DNA of 64,000 nt from an uncultured Alphaproteobacteria bacterium (GTDB lineage: Bacteria; Pseudomonadota; Alphaproteobacteria; HIMB59). The stretch's first letter is position 1; the number at the start of each line of letters is the position of its first letter. Positions 34,091-54,633 of this stretch are shown piece by piece. The translations under genes were made by a program, and so were the position numbers. The notes under the pieces were generated by a model. It had not been told where the DNA came from, did no database searches, and worked only from the letters and a program-made list of their open reading frames with translations. The stretch lies in assembly GCA_902515765.1 (NCBI GenBank), contig CABXVZ010000004.1, positions 1-64,000 of the forward strand. The letters run 5' to 3'.

Positions 34091-35488
34091 TTAAAATAAC
34101 TTTAGGTACTCTTTGATTTCCCAATCAGTTGTAGTTGTATGGTATCTTCTCCATTCATCATACTTGTAACCAATAAAGTTTTTTAACATAGACTCAGAAA
34201 AGACCTCTTTAGTCAAAGGATCCTCTTTAAATGCATCTATAGCTTCTAATAAGTTTCTTGGAAGAGTCTTAATATTTTTTCCCTCTTCTTCAGAAATATC
34301 ATAAAGGCTCTTATTCGTTGCTTCTGGTGGTTCCATTTTCTGAGTAATCCCTTTGGTAGCAGCTGCTGACAGTAATGAAAAAGTTAAGTAAGGATTCTGA
34401 GTTAAATCTGAAGCCCTATCTTCAATGCAATATCTATTTTGAGGAAGTCTTATCATAGAGGATCTATTATTGTTACCATAAGTCATATGTGTAGGAGCCC
34501 AAGTATGCATACCACCGTCAAGACCCTCGACCGAAGGAACAAAACCATTGTATGAATTAACTGTTGGGCAAGCGAGAGCGGTTATTGCAGCCCCATGGTC
34601 TAATATACCAGCAACAGCATTGTAAGCTCTAGATGAAAATTTATCTCCATCTTTATAAATATTTTTATTACCCTCACTGATACACTCAACACTATGGTTA
34701 ATATGAGCTCCTGATCTCCAGTCACTTATCTGTGTTTTAGGCATAAAAGATACGAAATATCCATGTTTTTTTGCTATTTCTTTTAATAAGACCCTTAAAA
34801 AAACAAATCTATCAGCCATACCAAGCATATCAGTATAGCCAAAATCTAATTCGTATTGACCGTATGCTCCTTCAGCTACAACATCATGAAGATCCCAATG
34901 CAAATCATTATTTAAAATATCAATCACTTCTTTTAAAAAATTCATACCATCAATAGAATATTCAGCATCATAACCAAATGCCTGTCTTCTTAAGGGGATA
35001 GGATCGTTGTCAATTGCCTTAACTGGTTTTCCATCTTCCCATTTCATCAAAAAAAATTCAGGCTCAATACCAACATAGAATTTTAAATCGGCCTTAGCGT
35101 TCTTGTAAATTTGTTTTTTTAAAGTTTGTCTTGGACAAACATCATAAGGTTTACCATTCCACCATAAGTCAGAAAATACCCAAGCACATGTTTTATCCCA
35201 AGGGCAAATAACTAAACTGTCTAAATCAGGAACAGGAATTTGATCATTATCAGCCGGTGTTAATTCAGGTACAAAAGATACTGAATGAACAGCAAACTGA
35301 GGGCCTTTGCCAGAGCATAAATCTTCAATGTCACATATTGGCATTGGTTTAGTTTTGGGACTTCCTAAAAAATCTATCCAGTTTGAGTAAATATACTTAA
35401 CTCCTTTAGATACTAAATCTTTTTTGATTTCTTGAACCTTCTTAGGATCAGGTAAGCAGTCTTTAAAATTGTCTATATATTCACCCAT
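34091..35488 (-). CDS. Glutamine synthetase-like gamma-glutamyl ligase, substrate unknown
   Basis: A 465-residue member of the glutamine synthetase superfamily. Recognisable parts: SNWIDFLGSPKTKPMPI, FYVGIEPEFFLMKW, YGQYELDFGYTDMLGMADRF, SFMPKTQISDWRSGAHINHS, NNRSSMIRLPQNRYCIEDRASD, and NPYLTFSLLSAA. In the metal and phosphate motif it reads GAHINHS where GlnA has GMHCHQS, so the second histidine (H271 of GlnA) is Asn. It keeps SLYDISEEE near the end, loosely like the adenylylation loop. Ribosome site AGGAG upstream. Probably glutamylates an amine; it is one of four GS-family proteins here. Confidence 0.75.
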   Translation of the reverse strand: MGEYIDNFKDCLPDPKKVQEIKKDLVSKGVKYIYSNWIDFLGSPKTKPMPICDIEDLCSGKGPQFAVHSVSFVPELTPADNDQIPVPDLDSLVICPWDKTCAWVFSDLWWNGKPYDVCPRQTLKKQIYKNAKADLKFYVGIEPEFFLMKWEDGKPVKAIDNDPIPLRRQAFGYDAEYSIDGMNFLKEVIDILNNDLHWDLHDVVAEGAYGQYELDFGYTDMLGMADRFVFLRVLLKEIAKKHGYFVSFMPKTQISDWRSGAHINHSVECISEGNKNIYKDGDKFSSRAYNAVAGILDHGAAITALACPTVNSYNGFVPSVEGLDGGMHTWAPTHMTYGNNNRSSMIRLPQNRYCIEDRASDLTQNPYLTFSLLSAAATKGITQKMEPPEATNKSLYDISEEEGKNIKTLPRNLLEAIDAFKEDPLTKEVFSESMLKNFIGYKYDEWRRYHTTTTDWEIKEYLKLF

Positions 35489-35579
35489 AGAAATCTCCTC
35501 TTTAAATATAAAGAATATTATATGATGTTAAAAATATTTTTCATTAAGAATAATTATTTAATTATGGTAAGTTTTTTTT

Positions 35580-35831
35580 ATGAACATAAGTTACTTTAAG
35601 AGATCTTGGATCCGATATTATAAGAGAGGTTTTTTTACAGGATTACTAATAATGAGTTTTATTTTAGTGATAGATCAATTTCTTTCTAATCCATTGTTCT
35701 TTAATAAGATAACAAGTCTAGATGTTTTTTTATTTATTTTATCTACAATTTTTTTTGGATCAGTTTTTTGCGGAATCCTCTCAATATTTTTCTTAGTGGT
35801 AGTGGTGTTGGCAACTAAAGAGAATAATTAG
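35580..35831 (+). CDS. Small membrane protein, two membrane segments
   Basis: An 83-residue protein with a basic start (MNISYFKRSWIRYYKRG) and two hydrophobic helices (about residues 17-35, FFTGLLIMSFILVIDQF; and 47-78, VFLFILSTIFFGSVFCGILSIFFLVVVVLA). No recognised family. Divergent from the GS-like gene and convergent with the amidotransferase gene, overlapping by 4 bases. Confidence 0.5.
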   Translation: MNISYFKRSWIRYYKRGFFTGLLIMSFILVIDQFLSNPLFFNKITSLDVFLFILSTIFFGSVFCGILSIFFLVVVVLATKENN

Positions 35832-36565
35832 ATAAGAATTTTTAACCAATTTTCTATTTCTAACTTTCTGTTGTATTTATCTTCTAATTCTAAAGACTCT
35901 AATTTACTTAATAATAAGCTAAATTCATCTTCAGTCATTAATTGAAGATAGTTCTTTTTCCAATATTTCATTAAATTGCCTATAAAGTTATAAGGTAATT
36001 CTGGATGATACTGAGTGCAGAAAATATTTTTATCTTTATGTGCTATTGATTGAATAGATAAATTATTTTGAGAAATAACTTCAAATTCAGAGCATAGACT
36101 TTCTAAACAATCGTAGTGATGACCTGGGGCCGAAAAAGTATCTTGTTTGTTTTCATAAACATTATGATTTTTAATTATTTTAATATTATCAGAGCAGCCA
36201 AATTCTGGTTTTGTGCTTTTTTTTATGGTGTCACCAAAACAAGTTGCTACAACTTGAAGGCCCCAACAGCTTCCCCATAAAGGTTTTTCTAATTTCAAAA
36301 TTTTTTCACAAATTATTAATTGGTCTCTGTTATGTTGATTGGATGTATAAATATTGCCCAAACCCCCTGTCCAAAGAAATGCATCATAGGAGCTAAATTC
36401 AAAACTATTAATGTCTTCTTCATATGAGTTAAAGACTGAAATTTGGGAATTATTTATTTTAGATGATATTATGTTATTAAAAAAGTGGTGTTGGTATACA
36501 CAATTAGCTTTATCATGCTCTTGGTCATGGACTTTTTCCATGCCGCTAATAATTAAAAATTTCAA
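35828..36565 (-). CDS. Class I glutamine amidotransferase-like protein
   Basis: A 245-residue stand-alone GATase1 domain related to the GuaA amidotransferase half. The nucleophile elbow is GSCWGLQVVAT and the His-Glu pair is in QYHPELPY; an LWTGGLGNIY segment is the oxyanion region. The start is TTG at 36565, two bases after the stop of the small gene upstream. Such proteins act as gamma-glutamyl amide hydrolases in some amine pathways; in aniline operons (tdnQ/tdnT) one is paired with a GS-like ligase, as could be the case here with the ligase at 34091-35488. That assignment is inference. Confidence 0.75.
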   Translation of the reverse strand: MKFLIISGMEKVHDQEHDKANCVYQHHFFNNIISSKINNSQISVFNSYEEDINSFEFSSYDAFLWTGGLGNIYTSNQHNRDQLIICEKILKLEKPLWGSCWGLQVVATCFGDTIKKSTKPEFGCSDNIKIIKNHNVYENKQDTFSAPGHHYDCLESLCSEFEVISQNNLSIQSIAHKDKNIFCTQYHPELPYNFIGNLMKYWKKNYLQLMTEDEFSLLLSKLESLELEDKYNRKLEIENWLKILI

Positions 36566-38496: not shown

Positions 38497-39804
38497 ATGG
38501 CTACAAATCTTCACCAATTTGCAAAAAAAAATGGAGTTAAATATTTCTTCGTCAGCTTTGTAGACTTATTTGGAGTACTAAGGTCTAAATTAGTTCCAGC
38601 AACTGCGATAGATGAAATTCAATCGGAGGGAGCTGGCTTTGCAGGTTTTGCCACATGGCTAGACATGTCCCCTGCTGACTCAGATATGTTTGGCATGCCT
38701 GATGGTGATAGTGTTATTCAACTCCCTTGGAATAAAGAAATTGCTTGGGTGGCCTCTGACTTATATATGAATGGAAAACCAGTAGAAGCCTCACCCAGAG
38801 TAGCTCTTAAAACACAAATAGCTAAAGCCAATAAGCTTGGAATGTACATGAAATCCGGAGTTGAATGCGAATATTTTTTAGTAAGCTCTGATGGAACTTC
38901 TTTGTCAGATCCGAAAGATACTCAAGAAAAACCTTGTTATGACTCATCTGCTTTAATGAGAAGATATGATGTTATTACTGAGATATGCGACTCAATGATT
39001 ACCTTGGGATGGAAGCCTTATCAAAATGATCACGAAGATGCCAATGGTCAATTTGAAATGAACTGGGATTTTTCAGATTGTTTAAAAACGGCAGATAGAC
39101 ATGCTTTCTTTAAATTTATGACAAAAACTATTGCAGAGAAACATGGTTTAAGAGCTACTTTTATGCCGAAGCCCTTTACTAATTTAACAGGTAATGGCTG
39201 TCATAGTCATATCTCTGTTTGGGACAAGACGGGTAAAAAGAATTTGTTTTTAGATAAAAAAGACGAATTAGGACTATCAAAAACTGGCTATCACTTCTTA
39301 GGAGGAATAGTAAATAGTGCTGATAAAATGGCAGCTATCTTTAACCCTACAGTGAATAGTTACAAAAGAATTAATGGATCTGTGACACTCTCTGGAGCGA
39401 CATGGTCACCTAGTTCAATTACTTGGGCGGGTAATAATAGAACTCATATGGTAAGAGTTCCTGGACCTGGTAGATTTGAATTAAGATTAATGGATGGTGC
39501 ATCTAATCCCTATTTACTCCAAGCTGGTAGTTTGATGTTAGGATTAGATGGAGTCCTTAATAAAAGAGATCCTGGAAAAAGACTTGATATTAATATGTAT
39601 ACTGAGGGTCATAAGGCAGGAAAAGTCAAAAAACTGCCCCTCAATTTATTAGACTCAATTAGAATTTTTGACTCATCTAAAGTTATAAGAGAGGGCTTTG
39701 GAAATCAGTTTGTAGATAGCTATGTGAAGCTTAAAAATAAAGAGTGGGAGTCATATTCAAGAAATCTTTCTCAATGGGAAAGAGATGCAACTCTAGATTG
39801 CTAA
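38497..39804 (+). CDS. gmaS: Gamma-glutamylmethylamide synthetase
   Basis: A 435-residue ligase of the glutamine synthetase superfamily that joins glutamate and methylamine using ATP. It has the length and wording of marine GmaS: KKNGVKYFFVSFVDLFGVLRSKLVPA, GFAGFATWLDMSPADSD, PWNKEIAWVASDLYMNGK, KSGVECEYFLVS, HEDANGQFEMNW, TGNGCHSHISVW and NNRTHMVRVPGPGRFELRL. The motif GCHSHIS keeps both histidines, unlike the two other GS-like ligases in this region. It supplies the substrate of N-methylglutamate synthase; two MgsABC sets lie downstream on the other strand. Confidence 0.88.
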   Translation: MATNLHQFAKKNGVKYFFVSFVDLFGVLRSKLVPATAIDEIQSEGAGFAGFATWLDMSPADSDMFGMPDGDSVIQLPWNKEIAWVASDLYMNGKPVEASPRVALKTQIAKANKLGMYMKSGVECEYFLVSSDGTSLSDPKDTQEKPCYDSSALMRRYDVITEICDSMITLGWKPYQNDHEDANGQFEMNWDFSDCLKTADRHAFFKFMTKTIAEKHGLRATFMPKPFTNLTGNGCHSHISVWDKTGKKNLFLDKKDELGLSKTGYHFLGGIVNSADKMAAIFNPTVNSYKRINGSVTLSGATWSPSSITWAGNNRTHMVRVPGPGRFELRLMDGASNPYLLQAGSLMLGLDGVLNKRDPGKRLDINMYTEGHKAGKVKKLPLNLLDSIRIFDSSKVIREGFGNQFVDSYVKLKNKEWESYSRNLSQWERDATLDC

Positions 39805-39808
39805 GAAA

Positions 39809-40366
39809 ATGACATCACCTGAAATTCTAAGAGAAAAATTTCTTGATTGGCAGTGCCAATCTAGGATACAGGCATTTAGAGTTGAAGGAGGTAGACCTAA
39901 TTCAGCAATGTCACCTATTCTTCTTGATAGAAAGGGGAATGAATTAAGTAAAATCATAGTGGTAATCACTGAAAATGACCCTGTTAATACTACAAAAATG
40001 TTTGAACACACTTTTAAGCAAACTTATGATCCAGCGACCAGGTTTGATAAAATGAATAAGTTTTTGTCTTCGGAATATTTTATAGATAGGAATAGTTTTT
40101 CAGACTCTTTGTTCGCAACATTTCCATTTGATTCCAAGATAACTAAAAAAATTTTAAAAGACAGTGAATGCACTCTTGACTTTATTCACCTCTCTACAAA
40201 TTATAGATTAGTATGCACACCCTTTATGTTAGAAAGGGATGAAGTTCACTGGGAAAACATCTTTTGGCATAATAAAAATTTTAATCCCGGCCTTGGAAAT
40301 GATATTGAAATTATCAAATTCATTCCCGATTGGGTAAAATCAAAACTTATAAGAATAACTGATTAA
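39809..40366 (+). CDS. Hypothetical protein coupled to gmaS
   Basis: A 185-residue protein starting four bases after the gmaS stop, so it is co-expressed with it. It has no signal peptide or membrane segment; recognisable features are EKFLDWQCQSRIQAFRVEGGRP, SPILLDRKGNEL and FMLERDEVHWENIFWHNKNF. I do not recognise the family. Its constant association with gmaS would point to an accessory role in methylamine use; that needs genome comparison. Confidence 0.7.
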   Translation: MTSPEILREKFLDWQCQSRIQAFRVEGGRPNSAMSPILLDRKGNELSKIIVVITENDPVNTTKMFEHTFKQTYDPATRFDKMNKFLSSEYFIDRNSFSDSLFATFPFDSKITKKILKDSECTLDFIHLSTNYRLVCTPFMLERDEVHWENIFWHNKNFNPGLGNDIEIIKFIPDWVKSKLIRITD

Positions 40367-40374
40367 AAAAAAAT

Positions 40375-40863
40375 TTATTCTACTAATTTAAAGTTATCAC
40401 CCTTAGCATAAGTTCTCTTAAGCTGGACTAATGGATGATCTGGTGACATTTGAAATTTTATTAACAATTCTCTTGCTACCATATCTCTATCTTGCTGGTC
40501 TTTGGGTAACTTCATTTTTTTAGGAAGAGTTATCCAAGCATTTGCATTTCTATCAAATACAGCAGGGTTTTCTCCCTCAAATCCCATATGGATATCTTCT
40601 AACCAATTAAGATCATCCCATCCCATTATATCGATATATTTTTTAAGAAAAGGTGTGATTTTTTTATAATCAGGTATTAGATTAACATCATAACGATAAC
40701 CAATATGCTGACCTATCATCTTTTCTCTTGATGATTTGATCTCTTTATCTTTTAACTTAGCACCACCAACAACCTTATATCCAGAACTGGAAGCAGAGTC
40801 TTTCTTTGCTTTTTTCTTTATATTTTTTTTAGTTGTTTTTTTTATTGTTTTTTTTGTAACCAT
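40375..40863 (-). CDS. Lysine-rich hypothetical protein, end of the second cassette
   Basis: A 162-residue protein. Residues 1-25 are almost only Lys and Thr (MVTKKTIKKTTKKNIKKKAK), like a nucleic-acid-binding or disordered tail. The rest is a compact domain with IGQHIGYRYDVNLIPDYKKI, MGWDDLNWLEDIHMGFEG and DQQDRDMVARELLIKFQMSPDHPLVQLKRTYAKGDNFKLVE. No known family recognised. It starts 15 bases after the MgsC-like gene, in the same direction, so it is probably the last gene of the second cassette. Confidence 0.65.
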   Translation of the reverse strand: MVTKKTIKKTTKKNIKKKAKKDSASSSGYKVVGGAKLKDKEIKSSREKMIGQHIGYRYDVNLIPDYKKITPFLKKYIDIMGWDDLNWLEDIHMGFEGENPAVFDRNANAWITLPKKMKLPKDQQDRDMVARELLIKFQMSPDHPLVQLKRTYAKGDNFKLVE

Positions 40864-40878
40864 ATTTAACTGAACTAT

Positions 40879-42213
40879 CTAAATTGAGTGATAGTTGTCT
40901 ACTCCTACTGTTAAGTTAGTTCCTGCAAGTGGCACTTTAGCCATAGCTGAGGACTCCATAGTTAGAGCTGCTAAATCTTCAGGTTCTAAGGAATGTATAT
41001 TTGTTTTACCACATGCTCGAGCTAGCATTTGACACTCAAGAGTCATGGTGCTTAGTAAGTTATATACTCTTTCAGATGCTTCCGTTGGATCTAGTCTACT
41101 TCTTAAAATTGGATCTTGTGTAGCTACACCAACAGGACATCTACCAGTATGACAGTGATAGCAAAATCCAGCTTCAACTCCCATTTCTTTTTCATAATCA
41201 GCTTCTGGAATGTCTTTATTGCAATTTAGAGCTACTAAACCTGCTGTACCTATTGCAATAGCATCGGCACCTAAGGCTAATGCTTTAGCCATATCAGCTC
41301 CATCTCTTATACCTCCAGCAAAAACAAGAGAGACTTTTCCAGACATGCCTACGTCATCTAGAGCTCTTCTAGCTTCTCTGATAGCGCCAATTCCAGGAAT
41401 ACCTGTATTCGCAGCAGCGATATGAGGTCCAGCAGCAGTGGAACCTTCCATTGAGTCTAAAAATATGGAGTCTGGGTCACATTTAGCTGCCATTCTTACA
41501 TCGTCATATACCCTCGATGCTCCAAGTTTTAGTTGAATAGGAACTTGGTTATCTGTTAATTCTCTGAGTTCTTGAACTTTTAATGCTAAATCATCTGGGC
41601 CCATCCAATCAGGATGTCTTGCTGGTGATCTTTGGTCAATACCAGCAGGAAGAGATCTCATTTCAGCAACTTGATCTGTAACTTTTTGGCCCATTAGGTG
41701 ACCACCCATACCAACTTTTTGTCCTTGGCCAATAAAAACCTCAATAGCATCCGCTAGTTGTGCGTGATGGGGATTGAAACCATACCTTGACTGAATACAT
41801 TGGTAATACCATTTATTAGAATACCTTCTCTCATCGGGGATCATTCCACCTTCACCGGAACAAGTAGCACTACCCGCCATAGAAGCACCTCTTGCTAAAG
41901 CTGTTTTGGCTTCATATGAAAGGGCACCAAAACTCATACTAGTAATATAAACAGGGACATCTAATTTAATTGGATTTTTAGCTCTTGGACCAATAATAGT
42001 TTCTGTTAGGCATTTTTCTCTATATCCTTCAATAACAAATCGAGTAAGTGTTCCTGGTAAAAATACAAGATCATCCCAATGGGGAATTTTTTTCATCAGT
42101 GCCATACCACGCATACGGTATCGACCTAATTGTGCTTTAATATGAATATCATCCATTACCTCAGGGGTAAAAATAGAATTCTGTCCTAAAAGTTGTGTAT
42201 TACGTTTACTCAT
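40879..42213 (-). CDS. MgsC-like synthase subunit, second cassette (Fe-S cysteines kept)
   Basis: A 444-residue FMN-binding domain like the central part of glutamate synthase large subunits, as in N-methylglutamate synthase subunit C (GlxD-like). It has SMSFGALSYEAKTALARGA, GEGGMIPDERR, KLGASRVYDDVR, GGIRDGADMAKALALGADAIAIG, and GFCYHCHTGRCPVGVATQ with C351, C354 and C359, which match the iron-sulfur cysteines of glutamate synthase. The paralogue at 47853-49175 lacks them. It follows mgsB-like by 8 bases. Substrate amine not known. Confidence 0.85.
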   Translation of the reverse strand: MSKRNTQLLGQNSIFTPEVMDDIHIKAQLGRYRMRGMALMKKIPHWDDLVFLPGTLTRFVIEGYREKCLTETIIGPRAKNPIKLDVPVYITSMSFGALSYEAKTALARGASMAGSATCSGEGGMIPDERRYSNKWYYQCIQSRYGFNPHHAQLADAIEVFIGQGQKVGMGGHLMGQKVTDQVAEMRSLPAGIDQRSPARHPDWMGPDDLALKVQELRELTDNQVPIQLKLGASRVYDDVRMAAKCDPDSIFLDSMEGSTAAGPHIAAANTGIPGIGAIREARRALDDVGMSGKVSLVFAGGIRDGADMAKALALGADAIAIGTAGLVALNCNKDIPEADYEKEMGVEAGFCYHCHTGRCPVGVATQDPILRSRLDPTEASERVYNLLSTMTLECQMLARACGKTNIHSLEPEDLAALTMESSAMAKVPLAGTNLTVGVDNYHSI

Positions 42214-42221
42214 TTGTTCTC

Positions 42222-43058
42222 CTAACCTAGTATACCTTTCTTTTCTGCAGGCTCTAAGTTGTCATAGTTCCACAACATTCTTCCTGCAACATATTTTTTA
42301 AACTTTGAAGCTGGCACTTTTGTTTCAATTTCAGCATTTTTAAATTTTTGCTCAAGCCATCTTACTTCATGTTCATTCATTTCTCCCTCAACGCAGTCTG
42401 TACCAAGAGATTTTGGTTCTCCACCAACAAATATTATTCCATCATACATAGAGTCTCCCATGTTGGCGCTAACATCACCACATACTATTATTCGACCTCT
42501 TTGCATCATAAAACCTGTGTAAGCTCCAGCGTTTCCACCGATTAGGATGGTACCGCCTTTCATGTCAATTCCTGTTCTAGCTCCTGCATTACCTTTAACG
42601 ATTAAATCTCCACCTCTTAAGGCGGCACCAAAACATGATCCAGCATTATTTTCTACAACAACTTTACCAGACATCATATTTTCAGCACAAGACCATCCGA
42701 CTCTACCATTAATTCTTACTGTCGGACCGTCTATGCAGCCAACGCCAAAGTAACCTAAGCTTCCTTCAAATATCAGATTTAACTTGTTAAGAATACCAAC
42801 GCCGAGAGCGTGCTTTGCTCCTGGATTTTTAATTACAACTGACCCATAGCCATCTCTTAGGGCATCTCTAATTTTTTGGTTTAATTGGTTTCCGTCTAAC
42901 TTTTCACAATCTATCTCAATTCTTTTATTAAAGTCAACCTCGTGGTTTCCATAATAAGTAAAATTTTCTTCTTCAGTAATGTCAAAAAAGAGTTTCTGGG
43001 ATCTACCAGATAAGTTTTCGTCATCAAAAGCTGTACTTTTTTTCTCTAGACCTGCCAT
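42222..43058 (-). CDS. MgsB-like GXGXG subunit, second cassette
   Basis: A 278-residue protein with the right-handed beta-helix of glutamate synthase C-terminal domains: repeated glycine motifs GAKHALGVGIL, GYFGVGCIDGPTVRINGRVG, GSCFGAALRGGDLIVKGNAGA and GGNAGAYTGFMMQRGRIIVCG. It is the structural middle subunit of N-methylglutamate synthase-type enzymes (GlxC/MgsB). Its start overlaps the end of the upstream amidotransferase gene by 13 bases. Confidence 0.85.
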   Translation of the reverse strand: MAGLEKKSTAFDDENLSGRSQKLFFDITEEENFTYYGNHEVDFNKRIEIDCEKLDGNQLNQKIRDALRDGYGSVVIKNPGAKHALGVGILNKLNLIFEGSLGYFGVGCIDGPTVRINGRVGWSCAENMMSGKVVVENNAGSCFGAALRGGDLIVKGNAGARTGIDMKGGTILIGGNAGAYTGFMMQRGRIIVCGDVSANMGDSMYDGIIFVGGEPKSLGTDCVEGEMNEHEVRWLEQKFKNAEIETKVPASKFKKYVAGRMLWNYDNLEPAEKKGILG

Positions 43059-43990
43059 ACTTTTACCTCCGCTTCATAAGGGTCGTAAGTTTTAATTTCA
43101 TGTGGAAATATGTTTCTAATAGCCACCTCTTCAGATGCACAAGCTACAATATCTTCACCTTCATAGATAACCATAGGTTTTGCAGCCATGTGATCTTTAG
43201 CCATTCCTAACTGGTCTTTTGTTGAAACAATATATGTAAAAACACCATCTAATTCATCTAAACTGTCGTGCATAGACTGTTCAAGATCAATACCTTTAGC
43301 CATTTTATCAGCAATATAAACAGCAATAATTTCAGAGTCACAATTTGAATTAAATCGATATCCACTTCTCTCCAAAATTCTTCTGTTACCCCAATAATTA
43401 GTCAATTGTCCGTTATGAACAACAGCTACATCTTGGTATGGAAAAGCCCAGTAAGGGTGAGCAGACTTGATATCAACGTCTGACTCGGTTGCCATTCTTG
43501 TGTGTCCAATGCCATGTGTTCCCATAAATTTATTTAATCCATATTGATCAGCCACAGTGGTAGCATCACCAAGGTCTTTAATTAACTCTAAACCTTTACC
43601 AATTGAAAGGATTTCAGTATTTTCAACAGTCTCTATAGCCTTAGCTAACTCTTCTAAATTTTCACTTTTATAAGTAAATTCGTATCTAAAAGCGTAAGGA
43701 GTGCTATTGGATTGCTTTGTAATTTTAGCCCCATGAGTTTTCATTATTGCATCTACTTGTTTTTTTCGATCTTTGAGAACTTCTGGATCTTCGGACTTGC
43801 TTGAGCTTTGCTCGGCTGCATTCTCCGATACTTTAAAACGAAGGATAAAGCCATCTTTTTTGGGTTTACCATACATGGCATAACCAGTTGAGTCAGGACC
43901 TCTATGCTTAATTCCTTGAAGCATAAGACTCATTTGTTCTCCTACGTTAACATTTTTCTTTTTATTAATTACTCCAGCTATTCCACACAT
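43046..43990 (-). CDS. MgsA-like class II amidotransferase, second cassette
   Basis: A 314-residue N-terminal nucleophile amidotransferase subunit. The mature nucleophile is C2 in MCGIAGVIN; other features are RGPDSTGYAMYG, HGIGHTRMATESDVDIKSAHPYW and VVHNGQLTNYWGNRR. In the family it releases the amine from a gamma-glutamylamide (for example from GMA). The insert of about residues 55-110 is similar in the paralogue at 49861, supporting a duplication. It lies 21 bases after a GS-like ligase. Confidence 0.87.
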   Translation of the reverse strand: MCGIAGVINKKKNVNVGEQMSLMLQGIKHRGPDSTGYAMYGKPKKDGFILRFKVSENAAEQSSSKSEDPEVLKDRKKQVDAIMKTHGAKITKQSNSTPYAFRYEFTYKSENLEELAKAIETVENTEILSIGKGLELIKDLGDATTVADQYGLNKFMGTHGIGHTRMATESDVDIKSAHPYWAFPYQDVAVVHNGQLTNYWGNRRILERSGYRFNSNCDSEIIAVYIADKMAKGIDLEQSMHDSLDELDGVFTYIVSTKDQLGMAKDHMAAKPMVIYEGEDIVACASEEVAIRNIFPHEIKTYDPYEAEVKVWQV

Positions 43991-44011
43991 ACTTTTCTCC
44001 TTATAATTATT

Positions 44012-45478
44012 TTATGGCAAGCAATCCAAATATTTATCAAGATCCCACTGAGTTGGAGTTGCTAGGAACTCTTCCCACTCATCTCTTTTATATTCAGTGA
44101 ACACTCTTAACATATCTCCAGGCATTGCATCTTGGATAAGTTTATCTTTGTCTAACTTGTCAAGAGCCTCTCCCAATGTCATTGGTAATTTTTCTTTACC
44201 AGCATTTGCTTCATACATGTTTTGTTGTTCGGGTTTACCTGGATCCATCTTTTCTTCAATTCCATGACCAAAAGCAGCTAACAGGCCTGAACCCATCAAA
44301 TAAGGATTATGTGCCGAGTCAACAGAACGATATTCAAATCTTCCTGGCGCTGAAACCCTTAAACCACAAGTTCTATTTTGATAACCCCAGTCAGCATAAA
44401 CAGGAGCCCAAAAACCAGCATCCCATAGTCTTCTATAAGAATTAACTGTTGATGAACCTAGTGCTGTCAAAGCAGGAAGGTGCTCCATTACTCCACCGAT
44501 AGCGTTCAATCCTATCTTACCTGGAATTTTTCTGTCATCAGTATCTGGCATAAAGACATTCTCTCCACCTCTTCGGTGATGATAAATTTGCTCCATTCCG
44601 GGAAGAGCCTTTACATCATTACCACATGGAATGAGTTGATCTTCACCATCTCTCCATAGGGAAATGTTAGTATGACAACCAGATGCTGAAACTCCAACAA
44701 AAGGTTTTGATAAAAAGCATGCTATTAAATTAAACTCTCTAGCTACTTGGGCACAAATCTGCCTGTAAGTAGAAAGTCTATCTGCATTTCTTAAAACATC
44801 ATCATAATTGAAATTTAATTCTAACTGGCCAGGTGCATCTTCATGATCGCCTTGAATTATATCAAGACCCATAAGTCTAGAGTATTCGATAACCTTCATG
44901 TAAACTGGTCTTAAAGATTCAAACTGATCTATATGATAACAATAAGGTTTTGAGAACCCGGAACCTGTAGGAGTTCCATCTTCGTTCTTGGTCAACCACA
45001 TCATTTCAGGCTCAGTTCCTGCTCTTAATTCTAAGCCATGTTTTTCTTTAAATTCTCTATGTTGTCTTTTTAGATTTCCTCTACAATCTGAAGTTAAGAA
45101 ACCACCTGGATCTTCATCTTCTTCTCTATTTCTAAAACAGGTACAAAAAACTCTAGCAATTCTTTTATCCCAAGGAAGTTGAATAAAAGTTTCTGGATCT
45201 GGAATACCAACTAATTCGTGAGCCTCCGGTCCATAACCAATATAATCACCATTTCTATTTGTAAATAAGTTTGCTGTAGATCCATAAACTAACTGAAAAC
45301 CTTTTTGAGCAACTGTTTCCCAATGGTCAGCAGGATAACCCTTACCAACAATTCTACCTGTGACTGAAATAAATTGGTAATAAATGTACTCAACACCTAA
45401 TTCATCAATCTTTTTTCTAACTTTTTTTACGTTTTCATTTCTTTCTTTATCTGAAACGTATGTTTCTAATGCTGTCAT
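44012..45478 (-). CDS. GS-like gamma-glutamyl ligase of the second cassette
   Basis: A 488-residue GlnT/GSIII-like glutamine synthetase-family protein. Motifs: YIYYQFISVTGRIVGKGYPADHW, LRAGTEPEMMWL, QGDHEDAPGQLELNFNYDDV, CFLSKPFVGVSASGCHTNISLW and NRTCGLRVSAPGRFEYRSVDSAHNPYL. In the catalytic motif it reads GCHTNIS where GlnA has GMHCHQS, so the H271 position is Asn. It sits between an FAD oxidoreductase and MgsABC-like genes in one minus-strand run. It probably glutamylates an amine other than methylamine, since GmaS is separately present; that is inference. Confidence 0.78.
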   Translation of the reverse strand: MTALETYVSDKERNENVKKVRKKIDELGVEYIYYQFISVTGRIVGKGYPADHWETVAQKGFQLVYGSTANLFTNRNGDYIGYGPEAHELVGIPDPETFIQLPWDKRIARVFCTCFRNREEDEDPGGFLTSDCRGNLKRQHREFKEKHGLELRAGTEPEMMWLTKNEDGTPTGSGFSKPYCYHIDQFESLRPVYMKVIEYSRLMGLDIIQGDHEDAPGQLELNFNYDDVLRNADRLSTYRQICAQVAREFNLIACFLSKPFVGVSASGCHTNISLWRDGEDQLIPCGNDVKALPGMEQIYHHRRGGENVFMPDTDDRKIPGKIGLNAIGGVMEHLPALTALGSSTVNSYRRLWDAGFWAPVYADWGYQNRTCGLRVSAPGRFEYRSVDSAHNPYLMGSGLLAAFGHGIEEKMDPGKPEQQNMYEANAGKEKLPMTLGEALDKLDKDKLIQDAMPGDMLRVFTEYKRDEWEEFLATPTQWDLDKYLDCLP

Positions 45479-45499
45479 TTTTTTATTCCTCCTAATACA

Positions 45500-46846
45500 T
45501 CAACTCCAAGGGAACGGGCTGTTTGAGACCGGATGTAATTTCCCTTCTTCATAACGAGAAAACCTGAAAGGTTCTAAAATATCAGATTTATTCCCAAGTA
45601 CTTCATCAGATACTAGATCGCCTATCCCTGCCATCTTATATCCATGATTTGCGTCAGCTATAATATACACATTTTCTCTGTATTGGTCGAATACTGGAAA
45701 ACGATCTGGAGTCACACAACCTACTCCACCAGCCTTTTGTCTTTTATACTGTGTGTGGCATCCATCAAACTGCTTTTGGCAAAATGCTAAAGCAGACGTA
45801 AACTTGTCTTCAAATGAAGCTCTTGGTTGAAATTCCTCTGACTTATGTCCATAAGGATCCATTTTCACTTCATTTACAGGTTTGGTAATATCATAAGGTG
45901 ATGAACCTCCTTGAATACCATTTCTATAAACATCAGGCTTATAGTAAAAACCCCACATCTCATTTTCATGGATAGTCTCACCCGTCTTAATGGAGATTAA
46001 TGGAGATTCAGTATCTACGTGGATGACAGGATACTCTTTTCCTTGAGCTGTTTTATAATTATTAGGATTAACCTCAAGTTCCCCCTCCTCTAAAGCCATG
46101 TAAGACCACATTGGAATATCATCAGTAAATGAACCATCTGCTTTTTTAATTTTAACAGAATTAGGAAGCTCTAATATCTCCCAAAATTTTCTAACCCACG
46201 GTCCAGCAGCAACAACCAATTGCGTACATTCAATAGTGCCTTGATTTGTTTCTACAGCAGAAACAGCGCCACTACCATTAGATGAAATTAAATTTGTTAC
46301 TTCAACACCCTCTAAAATTTTTGCACCTGCAGACTCAGCTAATTTTTTAAAACCCATATTAGCACCGATGTTTGCACCATACCCAGAATTTTTTTCATGT
46401 AGAACGGAAGTAATACCTTCAGCTTGCCAATCAGGTAGCATGTCCTTCATATATTTATCACAATCAGAGGCACCCTCAATAAAAGTGGAGTCATAGCCAA
46501 TTTCTTTTTGCTGATGATATACTTCTGACATTCCTTCATGCATAAGTTGAGAGTTAATCTGCATATAACCAACTGGTCTAAAGGTTAGTTCTTCTGCATT
46601 TTCATTCCAAACATTTACAGAGTGAGCCATTAACCGTCTCATTGCAGGTTGGTAGTAATTATTTCTAACGATTCCACAAGCTACACTCGTTGCGCCTTCA
46701 CCGACTTTTGTTTTTTCAAGAACAACTACTGAATTTTCTTTTAGTTGTCCTTTACTAGCTAATTTTTTAGATAAGTGCCATGCAGTACTGAGGCCATGAA
46801 TACCCGCCCCTATAATTAAGTATTCACAATTTGATGGTAAGCTCAT
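45500..46846 (-). CDS. FAD-dependent DadA/SoxB-like amine oxidoreductase, second cassette
   Basis: A 448-residue single-polypeptide flavoprotein. It opens with the dinucleotide fold YLIIGAGIHGLSTAWHL; later it has ACGIVRNNYYQPAMRRLMAHS and, at the end, GGVGCVTPDRFPVFD and ANHGYKMAGIGDLVSDEV, the FAD-binding terminus of the glycine oxidase/sarcosine oxidase beta family. It is the first gene of the run FAD oxidoreductase, GS-like ligase, MgsA-, MgsB-, MgsC-like, hypothetical. By analogy with MgdABCD it would oxidise an N-substituted glutamate, but here as one subunit. A palindromic operator lies 61 bases upstream of its start. Confidence 0.8.
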   Translation of the reverse strand: MSLPSNCEYLIIGAGIHGLSTAWHLSKKLASKGQLKENSVVVLEKTKVGEGATSVACGIVRNNYYQPAMRRLMAHSVNVWNENAEELTFRPVGYMQINSQLMHEGMSEVYHQQKEIGYDSTFIEGASDCDKYMKDMLPDWQAEGITSVLHEKNSGYGANIGANMGFKKLAESAGAKILEGVEVTNLISSNGSGAVSAVETNQGTIECTQLVVAAGPWVRKFWEILELPNSVKIKKADGSFTDDIPMWSYMALEEGELEVNPNNYKTAQGKEYPVIHVDTESPLISIKTGETIHENEMWGFYYKPDVYRNGIQGGSSPYDITKPVNEVKMDPYGHKSEEFQPRASFEDKFTSALAFCQKQFDGCHTQYKRQKAGGVGCVTPDRFPVFDQYRENVYIIADANHGYKMAGIGDLVSDEVLGNKSDILEPFRFSRYEEGKLHPVSNSPFPWS

Positions 46847-46906
46847 TACTAAATCCTCCAGTTGGTAATATGTATTTTGATCATAGGAAAGAGAAAAAAC
46901 ACTTAT

Positions 46907-46925
46907 TGTTTCAAATTATGGAACA
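46907..46925. promoter_or_regulatory. Candidate IclR operator before the second cassette
   Basis: TGTTTCAAATTATGGAACA: half-sites TGTTTCA and TGGAACA around 5 bases, one mismatch from a perfect palindrome. It lies upstream of the FAD oxidoreductase gene and matches two other sites (47734, 55947). It sits just downstream of iclR. Confidence 0.6.
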
Positions 46926-46943
46926 AAAAAATTAAAAAAAACG

Positions 46944-47711
46944 TTATTTATCAACAATTAAATTAGAAATTCTAGTTGAGGCCTTTTGCAATAATTGGAC
47001 ATAGTCAGGCATTGTCTTGGGATTCATAAGATTCTTACTACCAGACAATGAGATTCCCGCAAAGGATCTTTTATCACTATCTAATATGGCAACACCAATT
47101 CCATAAGTATTATCAAAGGCCTCACCATAGTTTAAAGAGTATCCCACGTTTCTAATTTTAGATAAATGTTTTTTAAGATCGTTTAAATTACTTATAGTGT
47201 TATTAGTATGAGGATAAAAATTATACCTTTTATAAACAGCAGCTATTTCATTTTCCGGTCTATATGCGAGCATCACTTTGCCTAAAGCACAGCAATGTGC
47301 ATCTAACCTCATTCTAAATGTACGATGGGAGGCATCACTATTTACACTTGATATTTTATCTGAATGAACAATTTGTGAACCCTCTAGCATCGCTAGATAG
47401 GTTATTAAATTTGTTTGACTGGAGATTTCTTCTAAAATTTCTCTAGAGGTTTCAGATATGGATTGCAAATAATCAGAAGTCTCTCCAAATTGAAAAGCCT
47501 TATGACCCATAATATATGTGTTAGAGATATTATTTTTATGAATGTAGCCTAATTGAGATAATACAGATAGTAATCTAAAAGTAGTTGTTCTAGAGATAGC
47601 AGCCTTTCTAGAAATATTGGCAGCTTTTAGAGGGAATAAAGATTTAGATAAAATTTCTAAAATCTTAAAAGATTTCTCTAAAGACTTATTAATATATTTT
47701 AGACTTTTCAT
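46944..47711 (-). CDS. IclR-family transcriptional regulator
   Basis: A 255-residue regulator. The ATG at 47711 is eight bases from an AGGAGG site; the GTG at 47720 overlaps that site and is less likely. Residues about 10-70 form the winged helix (KSFKILEILSKSLFPLKAANISRKAAISRTTTFRLLSVLSQLGYI), and the C-terminal effector domain reads MRLDAHCCALGKVMLAY, YSLNYGEAFDNTYGIGVAI and FAGISLSG. It lies between the mgd-mgs operon and the second cassette, and its own upstream region carries the palindrome, so it likely regulates itself and both sides. The effector is unknown. Confidence 0.88.
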   Translation of the reverse strand: MKSLKYINKSLEKSFKILEILSKSLFPLKAANISRKAAISRTTTFRLLSVLSQLGYIHKNNISNTYIMGHKAFQFGETSDYLQSISETSREILEEISSQTNLITYLAMLEGSQIVHSDKISSVNSDASHRTFRMRLDAHCCALGKVMLAYRPENEIAAVYKRYNFYPHTNNTISNLNDLKKHLSKIRNVGYSLNYGEAFDNTYGIGVAILDSDKRSFAGISLSGSKNLMNPKTMPDYVQLLQKASTRISNLIVDK

Positions 47712-47733
47712 CAAAAACACCTCCTACACAAAA

Positions 47734-47852: not shown

Positions 47853-49175
47853 TTAAAATTTACTGCCAGGTATCCAACTAGTACCCGTAAGAGGAACTCT
47901 TGCCATAGCAGCAGCTTCAACAGTTAATGCACATAAGTCCTCAGGTTCTAAGTTATGTAAATCATTTTTTCCACAAGCTCGTGCAATAGTTTGAGCTTCT
48001 AAAGTCATGACTTTGAGATAATTAGATAATCTCTTTCCTGCCTTTACAGGATCTAATCTTTTCATTAGCTGAGGATCTTGAGTATTAATACCTGAAGGAT
48101 CTTTACCTTCATGCCAATCATCAAATGCGCCAGCTGTAGTTCCTAGTTTATTATAATCACTTTCCCATTTAGGGTCATTATCCCCCAAAGCTATCAGTGC
48201 AGAAGAACCAATAGAAACAGCATCTGCTCCCAAGGCTAAAGCTTTAGCAACATCTGCTCCATTTCTTACACCACCTGAAACAACTAATTGAACTTTTCTA
48301 TGCATGTCTAAATCTAGTAAGGCATCAACCGCCGGCCTTATACACGCCAGTGTTGGTTGACCAACGTTTTCTATGAAAACTTCTTGAGTAGCTGCAGTTC
48401 CTCCTTGCATACCATCTAGAACGACAACATCAGCTCCTGCTTTAACAGCTAATGCAGTATCATAATATGGTCTTGCTCCAGCAAGTTTAACAAAAATTGG
48501 AACCTTCCACTCAGTAATTTCTCTAAGCTCCAGGATCTTAATTTCTAAATCGTCTGGTCCTGTCCAATCAGGATGACGGCAAGCTGATCTTTGGTCTATG
48601 CCTTTAGGAAGTGTTCTCATTTCTGCGACTCTGTCACTTATTTTCTGACCTAATAGCATTCCTCCTCCACCAGGTTTTGCCCCCTGTCCGATTACAACTT
48701 CTATGGCATCAGCTTTTCTTAAATCATTTGGGTTCATGCCGTATCTAGAGGGTAGTAGCTGGTAGACTAAATGCTTAGATTGCCCTCTTTCCTCTGGAGT
48801 CATACCACCATCACCTGTAGTTGTAGAAGTTCCAGCTATACTAGCCCCTCTGCCTAGAGCTTCCTTAGCAGGACCTGATAGCGCTCCAAAACTCATACCC
48901 GCAATAGTAATTGGGATGTCTAGTTTTAGAGGATTTTTTGCATATCTCGTTCCTAGCGTAACTTTTGTATTACATTTCTCTCTATAGCCTTCCAAAGGAT
49001 ATCTCGACATAGAAGCTCCAAGAAAAAGAAGATCATCAAAGTGAGGAAGTCTTCTTTTAGACCCTCCACCTCTAATGTCATAAATACCAGTTTCAGCTGC
49101 TCTTCTTATTTCTGAATTTGTGTATTCATCAAAAGTCCAAGACTGACGGGGAGTTGTTTTAATTTTATTGCTCAT
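47853..49175 (-). CDS. mgsC: N-methylglutamate synthase subunit C, Fe-S cysteines lost
   Basis: A 440-residue FMN-binding glutamate synthase-like domain: GMSFGALSGPAKEALGRG, GDGGMTPEERGQSK, KLAGARPYYDTALAVKAG, GGVRNGADVAKALALGADAVSIG. Where the paralogue and glutamate synthases have an iron-sulfur motif, this copy reads GAFDDWHEGKDPSG: the three cysteine positions are F351, W354 and D359. The synthase reaction swaps the amine of glutamate for methylamine and needs no net electron transfer, so cluster loss may be tolerable. Last gene of the mgdABCD-mgsABC operon, three bases after mgsB. Confidence 0.86.
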   Translation of the reverse strand: MSNKIKTTPRQSWTFDEYTNSEIRRAAETGIYDIRGGGSKRRLPHFDDLLFLGASMSRYPLEGYREKCNTKVTLGTRYAKNPLKLDIPITIAGMSFGALSGPAKEALGRGASIAGTSTTTGDGGMTPEERGQSKHLVYQLLPSRYGMNPNDLRKADAIEVVIGQGAKPGGGGMLLGQKISDRVAEMRTLPKGIDQRSACRHPDWTGPDDLEIKILELREITEWKVPIFVKLAGARPYYDTALAVKAGADVVVLDGMQGGTAATQEVFIENVGQPTLACIRPAVDALLDLDMHRKVQLVVSGGVRNGADVAKALALGADAVSIGSSALIALGDNDPKWESDYNKLGTTAGAFDDWHEGKDPSGINTQDPQLMKRLDPVKAGKRLSNYLKVMTLEAQTIARACGKNDLHNLEPEDLCALTVEAAAMARVPLTGTSWIPGSKF

Positions 49176-49177
49176 GG

Positions 49178-49873
49178 TTAATACTCTGACACATTATCGA
49201 TATTAAAATTGTATAATTTTTTAGCTGATCCATATTTCTTAAAATCTTTAGGTTTAACATTTTTAATACTACCTTTTTTTAATAATGATGTGAGCAGTTC
49301 TAAATCTTTTTTTGTAACTTTCTTTTCTTCGCAATCTGCTCCAAGAGATTTAACAGACCCTCGAACAAATAACTTTGCTTCATAGAGACTATCACCAAGA
49401 GCCTCTCCAGCATCTCCGCAAACTACCATATTTCCTGATTGCGCCATAAATGCTGACATATGCCCCACAGATCCTTTGACTATTATATCGATACCCTTCA
49501 TAGATATTCCACATCTTGAACTGGTATCTCCATCAATAATAAGCGTTCCGCCATGAGCGGTAGCTCCAGCAGATTGAGATGCATTGCCTTTAACATGGAC
49601 TTTTCCTGACATCATATTCTCTGCTACCCCTGTTCCCACATTACCTTCAATTGTAACCAAGGCTTTTTGATTCATTCCCGCGCAATAATATCCAACATGA
49701 CCTTTAACTGTAACTTCCATTTCATCTTTTAGTCCTGCACAAACTGCATGATTACCACTTGGGTTAGAAATTAAATAATTTCTTAAATTTGATTTAGGAT
49801 CTAAATTTTGAAGAACACTATTAACGTCTCTTAGCGACTTTTTCTTTAAGTCTAATTTGATTACTTCCCCCAT
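49178..49873 (-). CDS. mgsB: N-methylglutamate synthase subunit B
   Basis: A 231-residue GXGXG beta-helix subunit: GNHAVCAGLKDE, GHVGYYCAGMNQKALVTIEGNVGTG, GNASQSAGATAHGGTLIIDGD, GSVGHMSAFMAQSGNMVVCGDAG. It is shorter than the paralogue at 42222 (278 residues), mainly at the N-terminus. Overlaps mgsA by 13 bases. In N-methylglutamate synthase this domain links the amidotransferase and FMN subunits. Confidence 0.86.
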   Translation of the reverse strand: MGEVIKLDLKKKSLRDVNSVLQNLDPKSNLRNYLISNPSGNHAVCAGLKDEMEVTVKGHVGYYCAGMNQKALVTIEGNVGTGVAENMMSGKVHVKGNASQSAGATAHGGTLIIDGDTSSRCGISMKGIDIIVKGSVGHMSAFMAQSGNMVVCGDAGEALGDSLYEAKLFVRGSVKSLGADCEEKKVTKKDLELLTSLLKKGSIKNVKPKDFKKYGSAKKLYNFNIDNVSEY

Positions 49874-50751
49874 GAATAAACTACTCCTGGTTCTGGTTCA
49901 AATATTTTTGCAGCGTTAACACCTGGTAAATGAGCCATCGCTTGAAATTCAGAAGCAATAGCTACATAGTCGTTCGTCTCGGCTATTACTGCAGGCTTAC
50001 ATGCGATTTCATCTCTTACGATAGCGAAGCCCTCTTTGGTACCTGTTATGAAAGTATAAAAACCATCTAAATCCTTTAGTCCATTGACAAGAGTATCTTT
50101 TAAAGAAATTTTTTTTGATAAGCTATTTGAAATGTAACCTGCTGCTACCTCTGTATCGTTTTGAGAGTCGAATGTTTGACCTTGTTTTATAAGATTTCTT
50201 CTTAAATTATTATGATTAGATAATGAACCATTATGAACTAAGCATTCATCTTGACCAGTTGAATATGGATGAGATCCATTAGTTGTAATAGCACTTTCTG
50301 TAGCCATTCTTGTATGGCCAATAGCGTGCGTTCCTGAAAACTTATCTAATTGAAAATTTTTAATTACTTCTTTGGGGTTTCCTACTTGCTTAAAGATCTC
50401 TATAGATTTTCCGTATCCTACAAGAGATACATTTTTTAAATCTGAAGAAATAAATGAAAGTAGTTTTTTAGGATTTTCTTCTGAGGTTATTATGACATGA
50501 TCTGAGTGTTGTTTTAGTTTTAACTTTTTGAATTTTTTTGTAATTATTTTTTTAAAAGCACTAAAAGAAAAATCATTTAAAAGACAAATGGAATATTTAT
50601 ATTCTTTTGGTTTTTTATTATTTGAATAAATAGCAAATCCTGCGCTATCAGGACCACGAGTGGCCATACCTTCCATCATTCCTGTTAAATACTTACCCAG
50701 ATCCTTAGAAAGTTTTTTATTTTTTAAATAGATACCAACAATTCCACACAT
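49861..50751 (-). CDS. mgsA: N-methylglutamate synthase subunit A, class II amidotransferase
   Basis: A 296-residue amidotransferase-type subunit; the start at ATG 50751 gives MCGIVGIYL with C2 as nucleophile. A longer in-frame reading up to 50832 would bury the cysteine and overlaps mgdD, so I reject it. Features: RGPDSAGFAIYS, GTHAIGHTRMATESAITTNGSHPYS, LVHNGSLSNHNNLRR, NDTEVAAGYI. It follows mgdD by two bases. Likely acts on gamma-glutamylmethylamide from GmaS, transferring methylamine through an internal channel. Confidence 0.88.
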   Translation of the reverse strand: MCGIVGIYLKNKKLSKDLGKYLTGMMEGMATRGPDSAGFAIYSNNKKPKEYKYSICLLNDFSFSAFKKIITKKFKKLKLKQHSDHVIITSEENPKKLLSFISSDLKNVSLVGYGKSIEIFKQVGNPKEVIKNFQLDKFSGTHAIGHTRMATESAITTNGSHPYSTGQDECLVHNGSLSNHNNLRRNLIKQGQTFDSQNDTEVAAGYISNSLSKKISLKDTLVNGLKDLDGFYTFITGTKEGFAIVRDEIACKPAVIAETNDYVAIASEFQAMAHLPGVNAAKIFEPEPGVVYSWGK

Positions 50752-50753
50752 TT

Positions 50754-51359
50754 TTATTCCCCGATGAAACCATATTCTAGAGCGGAGTCGGTAATGCTGT
50801 GGTAAAAGGATCCACCAAAACTTCTTAGGCAAAAAAGTCTAAACGTAAGTGGCTGATCATCAATAAAATCGAGCATAAAACTGATACCGTTATAAGATGA
50901 ATTGGCACAGTTATTTTTTGTAAACTCAGAATTATTTAAATTCAAAGGAGTACCCTTTTTTAAAACATCAATAGCGTGCAATCCTGAGATTTCTATTCCA
51001 GCTCTAGAGTGAGAAAGATCAGTAACAGCAAAATCATCACTATCGATAGAAGATAGTTTTTCTTTAATGTCTGTATCAGTGGACACTACCATGCATATAT
51101 GAGGGCCATTCCATAAAATTCTAGTGTCATTATTATTATAACTAACGTCTGGATATTTTTTAGGTAAATTTAGTCCGTCAATTGAGACTAAGTCTACATT
51201 AGCTTTACTACTTTTAAATTTTGCTATTTGATAAATAGATAAGTTAGTTAATTCTTTAACAGTTAAAAGTTCACTCTTTTCTTTATTATGATAATTACCA
51301 AAACTACCAATCTGATGGTCATTTATTAAAGCAGATGAATTGATATTTAAATTTGACAT
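50754..51359 (-). CDS. mgdD: N-methylglutamate dehydrogenase subunit D (SoxG-like)
   Basis: A 201-residue subunit like sarcosine oxidase gamma. Recognisable parts are PDVSYNNNDTRILWNGPHICMVVS, FAVTDLSHSRAGIEISG and FRLFCLRSFGGSFYHSITDSALEYGF, the usual SoxG ending. It begins directly at the mgdC stop, so it is part of the same operon (mgdA-B-C-D-mgsA-B-C). Its role in the complex is structural, near the folate-binding side of the alpha subunit. Confidence 0.82.
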   Translation of the reverse strand: MSNLNINSSALINDHQIGSFGNYHNKEKSELLTVKELTNLSIYQIAKFKSSKANVDLVSIDGLNLPKKYPDVSYNNNDTRILWNGPHICMVVSTDTDIKEKLSSIDSDDFAVTDLSHSRAGIEISGLHAIDVLKKGTPLNLNNSEFTKNNCANSSYNGISFMLDFIDDQPLTFRLFCLRSFGGSFYHSITDSALEYGFIGE

Positions 51360-54358: not shown

Positions 54359-54363
54359 TTTTT

Positions 54364-54630
54364 TTATAACTCTTCTTCAAGACTTGCTGTATTAAAAATT
54401 TCGTGAGTAGCGGTATCTCTTGAAGCCTTGAACCATTGCCTACATCCGGCAACATGATGCCAATATTCAGTATGTTTTCCTCTGGGGTTATCTCTAAAAT
54501 AAACAAAATTATCCCATTCTTTAGTTGAAACTTCATCTCCAAGATTTGGTCTTTTTACAGTGGCATCACCACCGTAAGCAAATTCATTTTGTGATCTCTT
54601 ACCACAATAGGGGCATTTAATTTCAAGCAT
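54364..54630 (-). CDS. mgdB: N-methylglutamate dehydrogenase subunit B (SoxD-like)
   Basis: An 88-residue zinc-binding delta-type subunit: IKCPYCGKRSQNEFAYGGDA, with the CxxC pair, then WHHVAGCRQWFKASRDT with His and Cys completing the site. Sits between mgdA and mgdC in the standard B-D-A-G order of sarcosine oxidase-type operons, 3 bases from mgdA. Confidence 0.9.
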   Translation of the reverse strand: MLEIKCPYCGKRSQNEFAYGGDATVKRPNLGDEVSTKEWDNFVYFRDNPRGKHTEYWHHVAGCRQWFKASRDTATHEIFNTASLEEEL

Positions 54631-54633
54631 TAT

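Follow-up and report, generated by a model that had tools for sequence, protein, structure and literature searches.

A stretch of 64,000 nucleotides from an uncultured alphaproteobacterium of the HIMB59 lineage (contig CABXVZ010000004.1, positions 1 to 64,000, here called the window) carries on its minus strand, at 40375-46846, a block of six tightly spaced genes that is likely to constitute a catabolic module for dimethylamine (DMA), standing in for the DMA monooxygenase DmmDABC. The amine, left open by the original prediction of a parallel N-alkylglutamate pathway at this site, is most likely DMA, a substrate assignment that can be made with good confidence; N,N-dimethylglutamate as the intermediate is probable, with somewhat more reserve. 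The module is most likely new as a pathway and made of known kinds of enzymes.

The proposed route has four steps. The 488-amino-acid ligase would couple DMA to glutamate at the expense of adenosine triphosphate (ATP), giving gamma-glutamyl-dimethylamide, from which an MgsABC-like complex would free DMA through its glutaminase subunit and channel it to the flavin mononucleotide (FMN) subunit for reductive condensation with 2-oxoglutarate to N,N-dimethylglutamate. The one-chain flavin adenine dinucleotide (FAD) enzyme would then take off one methyl group as formaldehyde or methylene-folate, yielding N-methylglutamate, which the N-methylglutamate dehydrogenase MgdABCD or a variant of it, Mgd-II, would convert to glutamate.

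Organisation and conservation of the block

All six open reading frames of the minus-strand run originally described as encoding an FAD oxidoreductase, a glutamine synthetase (GS)-like ligase, MgsABC-like subunits and a Lys-rich protein were recovered, and searches of Pfam and NCBIfam agree with that description, identifying the FAD enzyme as DAO, the ligase as Gln-synt_C and the MgsA-, MgsB- and MgsC-like subunits (together MgsABC2) as GATase, GXGXG and Glu_synthase, respectively. The genes are separated by 8-21 base pairs (bp) or overlap by 13 bp. The block, with a convergent gene that probably belongs to it, reads as follows.

45500-46846, minus strand: FAD amine oxidase, 448 amino acids, DAO/sarcosine oxidase-like, first gene of the block; proposed N,N-dimethylglutamate demethylase
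44012-45478, minus strand: GS-like ligase, 488 amino acids; proposed gamma-glutamyl-dimethylamide synthetase
43046-43990, minus strand: MgsA-like class II glutamine amidotransferase subunit, 314 amino acids, N-terminal Cys2 invariant
42222-43058, minus strand: MgsB-like GXGXG subunit, 278 amino acids, from the family search
40879-42213, minus strand: MgsC-like FMN glutamate-synthase subunit, 444 amino acids, with invariant Cys351/354/359, an Fe-S-like motif
40375-40863, minus strand: Lys-tailed protein, 162 amino acids, with a conserved core of about 110 amino acids; family-less marker of the module
39809-40366, plus strand: convergent gene, 185 amino acids, predicted FMN-binding split-barrel (PNPOx-like) fold; probable seventh module member

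A scan of contigs with the ligase gave 80 loci from HIMB59-like and SAR11 genomes (73-99% identity), and the six-gene order is kept in every locus whose contig reaches far enough; genes are missing only where a contig ends. Among 289 evenly sampled Alphaproteobacteria genomes, the cassette ligase (67-100% identity) occurs in 28 genomes of 17 families; ligase, MgsABC2 and, contig ends aside, the Lys-tailed gene stand together in 26 genomes of 16 further families, with the FAD gene adjacent to the ligase or a few genes off in 21 of these 26 loci. Conservation of the block is beyond chance. In many distant families the neighbour of the Lys-tailed gene is the 185-amino-acid gene, even if gmaS, which adjoins the latter in the window, lies elsewhere; the 185-amino-acid gene is therefore probably a member of the module. 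Plasmid records held ligase relatives of 40-53% identity only, and the Lys-tailed protein was not found in them; phage records held only distant GS proteins (27-29%). One SAR11-like cassette contig (L055) is binned in a metagenome-assembled genome titled Flavobacteriales, and is probably misbinned.

Association with TMAO demethylase and exclusion of DmmA

The DMA-releasing trimethylamine N-oxide (TMAO) demethylase gene tdm was found in 26 of the 289 sampled genomes (one match, in G230, being partial), and 20 genomes carry both ligase and tdm where 2.5 would be expected (p=2e-19). The ligase and tdm are no more than 20 kb apart in 8 of the 18 sampled cassette genomes with tdm, from four families. 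In the order to which the window belongs, the Lys-tailed protein occurs in 62 genomes, of which 58 have tdm, against 11 of the 88 genomes that lack the protein.

The background frequency of PF11927, the family of the DMA monooxygenase subunit DmmA, is 38 of the 289 genomes. A second draw over the phylum added 23 tdm genomes. Leaving aside the genus of the window, 46 genomes have tdm: in 18 of them the cassette is present and PF11927 absent, in the other 28 PF11927 is present and the cassette absent (one of these 28 has a ligase relative of 52% only), and no genome combines the two or is without either. By families, 10 are of the cassette type and 10 of the PF11927 type, none being mixed. This exclusion has a p value of 4e-13 by genomes and 5e-6 by families, neither of which takes deeper kinship into account. 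The tdm tree shows five swaps of the label between cassette and PF11927, at least three of them on well-supported branches, and both traits change together each time. In the three loci checked (L178, L179, L184) the PF11927 gene is part of a dmmD/dmmBC/dmmA cluster that adjoins tdm, tmm or gmaS. One HIMB59 genome of 94% completeness (G004; contig G004:C9, locus L185) has tdm and TMAO-transporter genes without the cassette, gmaS or a close mgdC, and its DMA and monomethylamine (MMA) branches seem to have been lost together.

In SAR11 the genes are arrayed (locus L063) as tmoXVW followed by tdm-MarR-FAD-Lig-MgsABC2-Lys-amt-mgsABC1-gmaS, with the block directly after tdm. The published annotation of strain HTCC1062 lists SAR11_1302 as opuAC, 1303 as aminomethyltransferase, 1304 as monomeric sarcosine oxidase, 1305 as glnT, 1309 as hypothetical, 1310 as amt, 1313-1315 as glxBCD and 1316 as glnT/putative gamma-glutamylmethylamide synthetase (PMC3160333; PMC5069961; PMC2704228). 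Gene order and annotation make it probable that SAR11_1304-1309 is the cassette, with the FAD enzyme corresponding to SAR11_1304 and the ligase to SAR11_1305. SAR11_1316, considered as an alternative ligase on account of its glnT label, was rejected, its position being that of gmaS in SAR11 and the ligase matching SAR11_1305.

SAR11 is without dmmDABC though tmm, tdm and gmaS are present, and this lack led in 2017 to the idea of a marine genetic bottleneck for DMA, which would explain DMA-rich marine aerosols (PMC5520151); roseobacter CHAB-I-5 is likewise reported there to be without dmm. HTCC1062 nevertheless proved in 2022 to grow with TMAO as sole nitrogen source, the DMA step having been assigned to an assumed, unidentified isoenzyme (PMC8918994). 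A DMA route via the cassette would account for such growth of SAR11 in spite of its lack of dmmDABC. No pathway through dimethylglutamate or gamma-glutamyl-dimethylamide was found in the literature; subscription papers and preprints were outside the search, so that an earlier description is possible.

Fate of the product

A methylamine exit from the module would need gmaS, which was not found in 7 of 26 cassette genomes outside HIMB59, including G228, G329 and G219 (95-100% completeness) and all three genomes of family f46. The cassette of G329 adjoins a true Mgd (tree support 100/99), that of the three f46 genomes Mgd-II, a second Mgd-like clade. As Mgd-II also adjoins gmaS or mgsABC1 in families f36, f76 and f17, it is suggested to be a variant of N-methylglutamate dehydrogenase; its loci are L148, L156, L157, L168, L172, L207-L209, L213 and L217, and its MgdA is 38-47% identical to that of the window. 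In G228 folD is found one gene from the cassette, a single GntR regulator standing between them. With gmaS absent from seven genomes and an Mgd-like dehydrogenase beside the cassette in four, the product is probably N-methylglutamate, and the neighbouring Mgd, Mgd-II and folD genes fit an exit at this compound with release of a one-carbon unit.

Conservation of the block without gmaS and mgdABCD, which had been proposed as a check of the original prediction, is borne out for gmaS by the seven genomes noted above and not for the dehydrogenase, as an Mgd- or Sox-type heterotetramer is present in every cassette genome searched. Of the parallel N-alkylglutamate pathway then predicted, the second amine-glutamylation module, with its own ligase that keeps the GmaS pocket and a one-chain flavoprotein in a conserved unit, has held. 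Its free-standing character has not: the module is probably a branch with N-methylglutamate as its end product, dependent on MgdABCD or Mgd-II.

The enzymes of the module

On TIGR03105 (cut-off 469.6 bits), the family that holds GmaS, the ligase scores 297.4 bits against 645.3 bits for the GmaS of the window, and the two therefore belong to different families. The seven amine-pocket residues of the crystallised enzyme RhGmaS (Lys30, Tyr147, Gln175, Asp177, Glu179, Glu186, Asn188) are invariant in 83 ligase orthologs, and the pocket neighbour Tyr174 is Ile or Val; the GlnA of the window differs from GmaS at five of the seven positions. RhGmaS accepts DMA weakly (Km 16 mM, kcat 2.6 per s; PMC7948447), so that glutamylation of DMA is possible for a GS-like fold. 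Ligase relatives of 52-62% identity occur outside any cassette in L173-L177 (genomes G391, G396, G301, G303 and G419) and on plasmids NZ_CP098363.1 and NZ_CP065360.1; in L173-L177 their neighbour is another GS-like gene, distant in sequence (26-28% to gmaS). They possibly serve another amine-glutamylation pathway.

The solved-structure relatives of the FAD enzyme, the conservation of which was judged on 95 orthologs, include sarcosine oxidases and dimethylglycine dehydrogenases (best PDB match E=2.5e-13). It scores far under the NCBIfam cut-offs of soxB (72.7 versus 529.5 bits) and soxA_mon (46.2 versus 479.7 bits), and the family search found in its chain the DAO domain alone, with no C-terminal folate-binding GcvT domain. 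MgsA2 retains the N-terminal Cys. MgsC2 carries the invariant C-x2-C-x4-C motif, absent from MgsC1, suggesting that it uses a different electron path.

The Lys-tailed protein has no Pfam or NCBIfam family and no credible PDB relative, and its predicted fold is of low confidence (predicted local distance difference test, pLDDT, 62) and without a fold match. For the 185-amino-acid protein the prediction is an FMN split-barrel-like fold (pLDDT 85; best PDB match E=4e-4). Both are probably accessory, in electron transfer, assembly or regulation.

Relation to known systems

The closest known system is the N-methylglutamate pathway, which shares with the cassette a GS-fold ligase that has the same residues in its amine pocket and spends ATP on gamma-glutamylation, the three-subunit MgsABC glutamate-synthase-like enzyme and the subsequent flavin-dependent demethylation. 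On the other hand, the cassette ligase is of a separate family, the Cys triad of MgsC2 is lacking in MgsC1, a single 448-amino-acid DAO chain takes the place of the four-subunit Mgd dehydrogenase, the Lys-tailed and split-barrel proteins are additional, and the proposed substrate is DMA.

With DmmDABC (PF11927, a haem-dependent oxidative N-demethylase) the cassette shares, by synteny and exclusion, the proposed step after Tdm. This is a functional analogy only, the two having no homologous parts and the block holding neither a PF11927 haem subunit nor reductase subunits; while the Dmm monooxygenase yields methylamine, the cassette would spend ATP and glutamate and yield N-methylglutamate. Dimethylglycine dehydrogenase and sarcosine oxidase are among the nearest solved relatives of the FAD enzyme and equally remove an N-methyl group from an N-methylated amino acid, but the similarity is weak and the folate domain and family-level scores are missing, as described above. 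The Streptomyces enzymes GlnA4 (ethanolamine) and GlnA3 (polyamine) and the glutamylation of 1-naphthylamine resemble the cassette in that a GS-like enzyme activates an amine for breakdown. For these routes we know of no exchange by MgsABC to an N-alkylglutamate.

Weighing of the alternatives

Several observations weigh against a DMA module. The strict independent-pairs test on the tdm tree leaves only three pairs (p=0.25), too few for significance, and the genome counts overstate independence. Not all PF11927 genes need be DMA monooxygenases: the match in G170, a genome in which tdm is short, is only 26% identical to DmmA. HIMB59 genomes themselves hold a short and weak PF11927 protein (51-59 bits; G000:C9:20731-21285, L183:9582-10289), though with 235 amino acids and no reductase gene nearby it was rejected as a DMA monooxygenase. 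G215 shows only Sox-type relatives of Mgd. No FAD gene stands near the ligase in 5 of the 26 loci (G313, G215, G409, G321 and G219), a search that was confined to the neighbourhood and did not extend to the rest of those genomes, and at least two of the five are not explained simply by contig ends. Close paralogs of the ligase stand outside the cassette, so that its substrate is unreadable from the sequence alone. In eight sampled genomes the cassette occurs without tdm and is therefore not tied to TMAO; these genomes could import DMA or work on a different amine.

The last two points lend themselves to an alternative in which another small amine (ethylamine, ethanolamine, a taurine-like or an unidentified secondary amine) is glutamylated and the FAD enzyme oxidises the N-substituted glutamate, the link to tdm reflecting general amine metabolism; the sister ligases of 53-62% identity outside the cassette indeed indicate a family serving more than one pathway. 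We regard this as unlikely, as it leaves unexplained why tdm-positive genomes have just one of the two, cassette or PF11927, why the SAR11 block lies directly behind tdm, and why Mgd stands beside the cassette without gmaS, with folD nearby in G228. A second route for monomethylamine, with isoenzymes of GmaS and MgsABC and a one-chain dehydrogenase of, for example, higher affinity, would suit the fully retained amine pocket, the seven cassette genomes from which gmaS is missing and the position of the cassette next to MMA genes in the window. Such a route is very improbable: most cassette genomes retain gmaS too, a costly duplication in streamlined genomes, the ligase stays at 297 bits under the 469.6-bit cut-off of the GmaS family, and neither the exclusion of PF11927 nor the SAR11 order tdm-cassette-mgsABC1-gmaS would be accounted for.

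The genomic evidence for DMA is shared by a variant of the proposal with other intermediates, in which the FAD enzyme acts at another stage and gamma-glutamylmethylamide or methylamine is handed over. DAO-type flavoenzymes handle amide nitrogen poorly, and an exit at the level of methylamine meets the difficulty of the seven genomes without gmaS, four of them with Mgd or Mgd-II beside the cassette, which makes this variant highly doubtful. The DMA module with exit at N-methylglutamate is thus the reading retained here.

Regulation and genomic neighbourhood

The known MMA genes, GmaS, MgsABC and MgdABCD, do lie separately in the window, as had been noted. The features around the block are the following.

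38497-39804, plus strand: gmaS (gamma-glutamylmethylamide synthetase) of the known MMA pathway, outside the module; match to 7cql, E=3.6e-181
46906-46926, no strand assigned: operator-like palindrome TTGTTCC-N7-GAAACAA upstream of the FAD gene, from sequence conservation
46944-47720, minus strand: IclR-family regulator, by family search and position a candidate to act on the palindrome
47853-55890, minus strand: mgsABC1 and mgdABCD, encoding the known synthase and dehydrogenase of N-methylglutamate; the module product is proposed to be consumed by Mgd
56064-57398, plus strand: tmm, trimethylamine monooxygenase, by structure match
58762-61113, minus strand: tdm, TMAO demethylase (DUF1989 and GCV_T), the DMA-releasing enzyme; match to 9q59, E=8.5e-264

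Identification of tmm and tdm rests on near full-length matches to solved structures. The operator that had been ascribed to the block is real as a sequence feature: the palindrome is the sole zero-mismatch match in the window, its core recurs in seven relatives, of which two are distant, at the corresponding place upstream of the FAD gene, and several relatives have a similar site immediately ahead of iclR. Scanning the block for promoters yielded no excess of sites over shuffled sequences. The regulator at the operon differs, being IclR in HIMB59, GntR/FCD in most other families and a 116-amino-acid MarR-like protein in SAR11, where the small gene with a helix-turn-helix, MarR-like by eye, lies between tdm and the FAD gene (L063:8160-8507); unrelated regulators thus occupy the same position across groups.

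Elsewhere in the window, at 33074-36565, a further GS-like gene (465 amino acids) stands beside an alpha/beta hydrolase and a class I glutamine amidotransferase, resembling a separate gamma-glutamylation pathway. The translation of 5312-7351, read by eye, shows a 679-amino-acid fusion protein, a glutaminase with ankyrin-like repeats at its C-terminus.

Implications

Taken over the lineages examined, SAR11, HIMB59 and many other Alphaproteobacteria probably possess a monooxygenase-independent DMA pathway through gamma-glutamyl-dimethylamide and N,N-dimethylglutamate, which would lift the supposed marine DMA bottleneck. The open question of the DMA step is hereby turned into named, assayable genes. 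If the proposal is true, much of the DMA-consuming capacity escapes gene surveys that rely on dmm, N,N-dimethylglutamate and gamma-glutamyl-dimethylamide would become measurable tracers, and one of the most abundant bacterial groups of the ocean can consume DMA.

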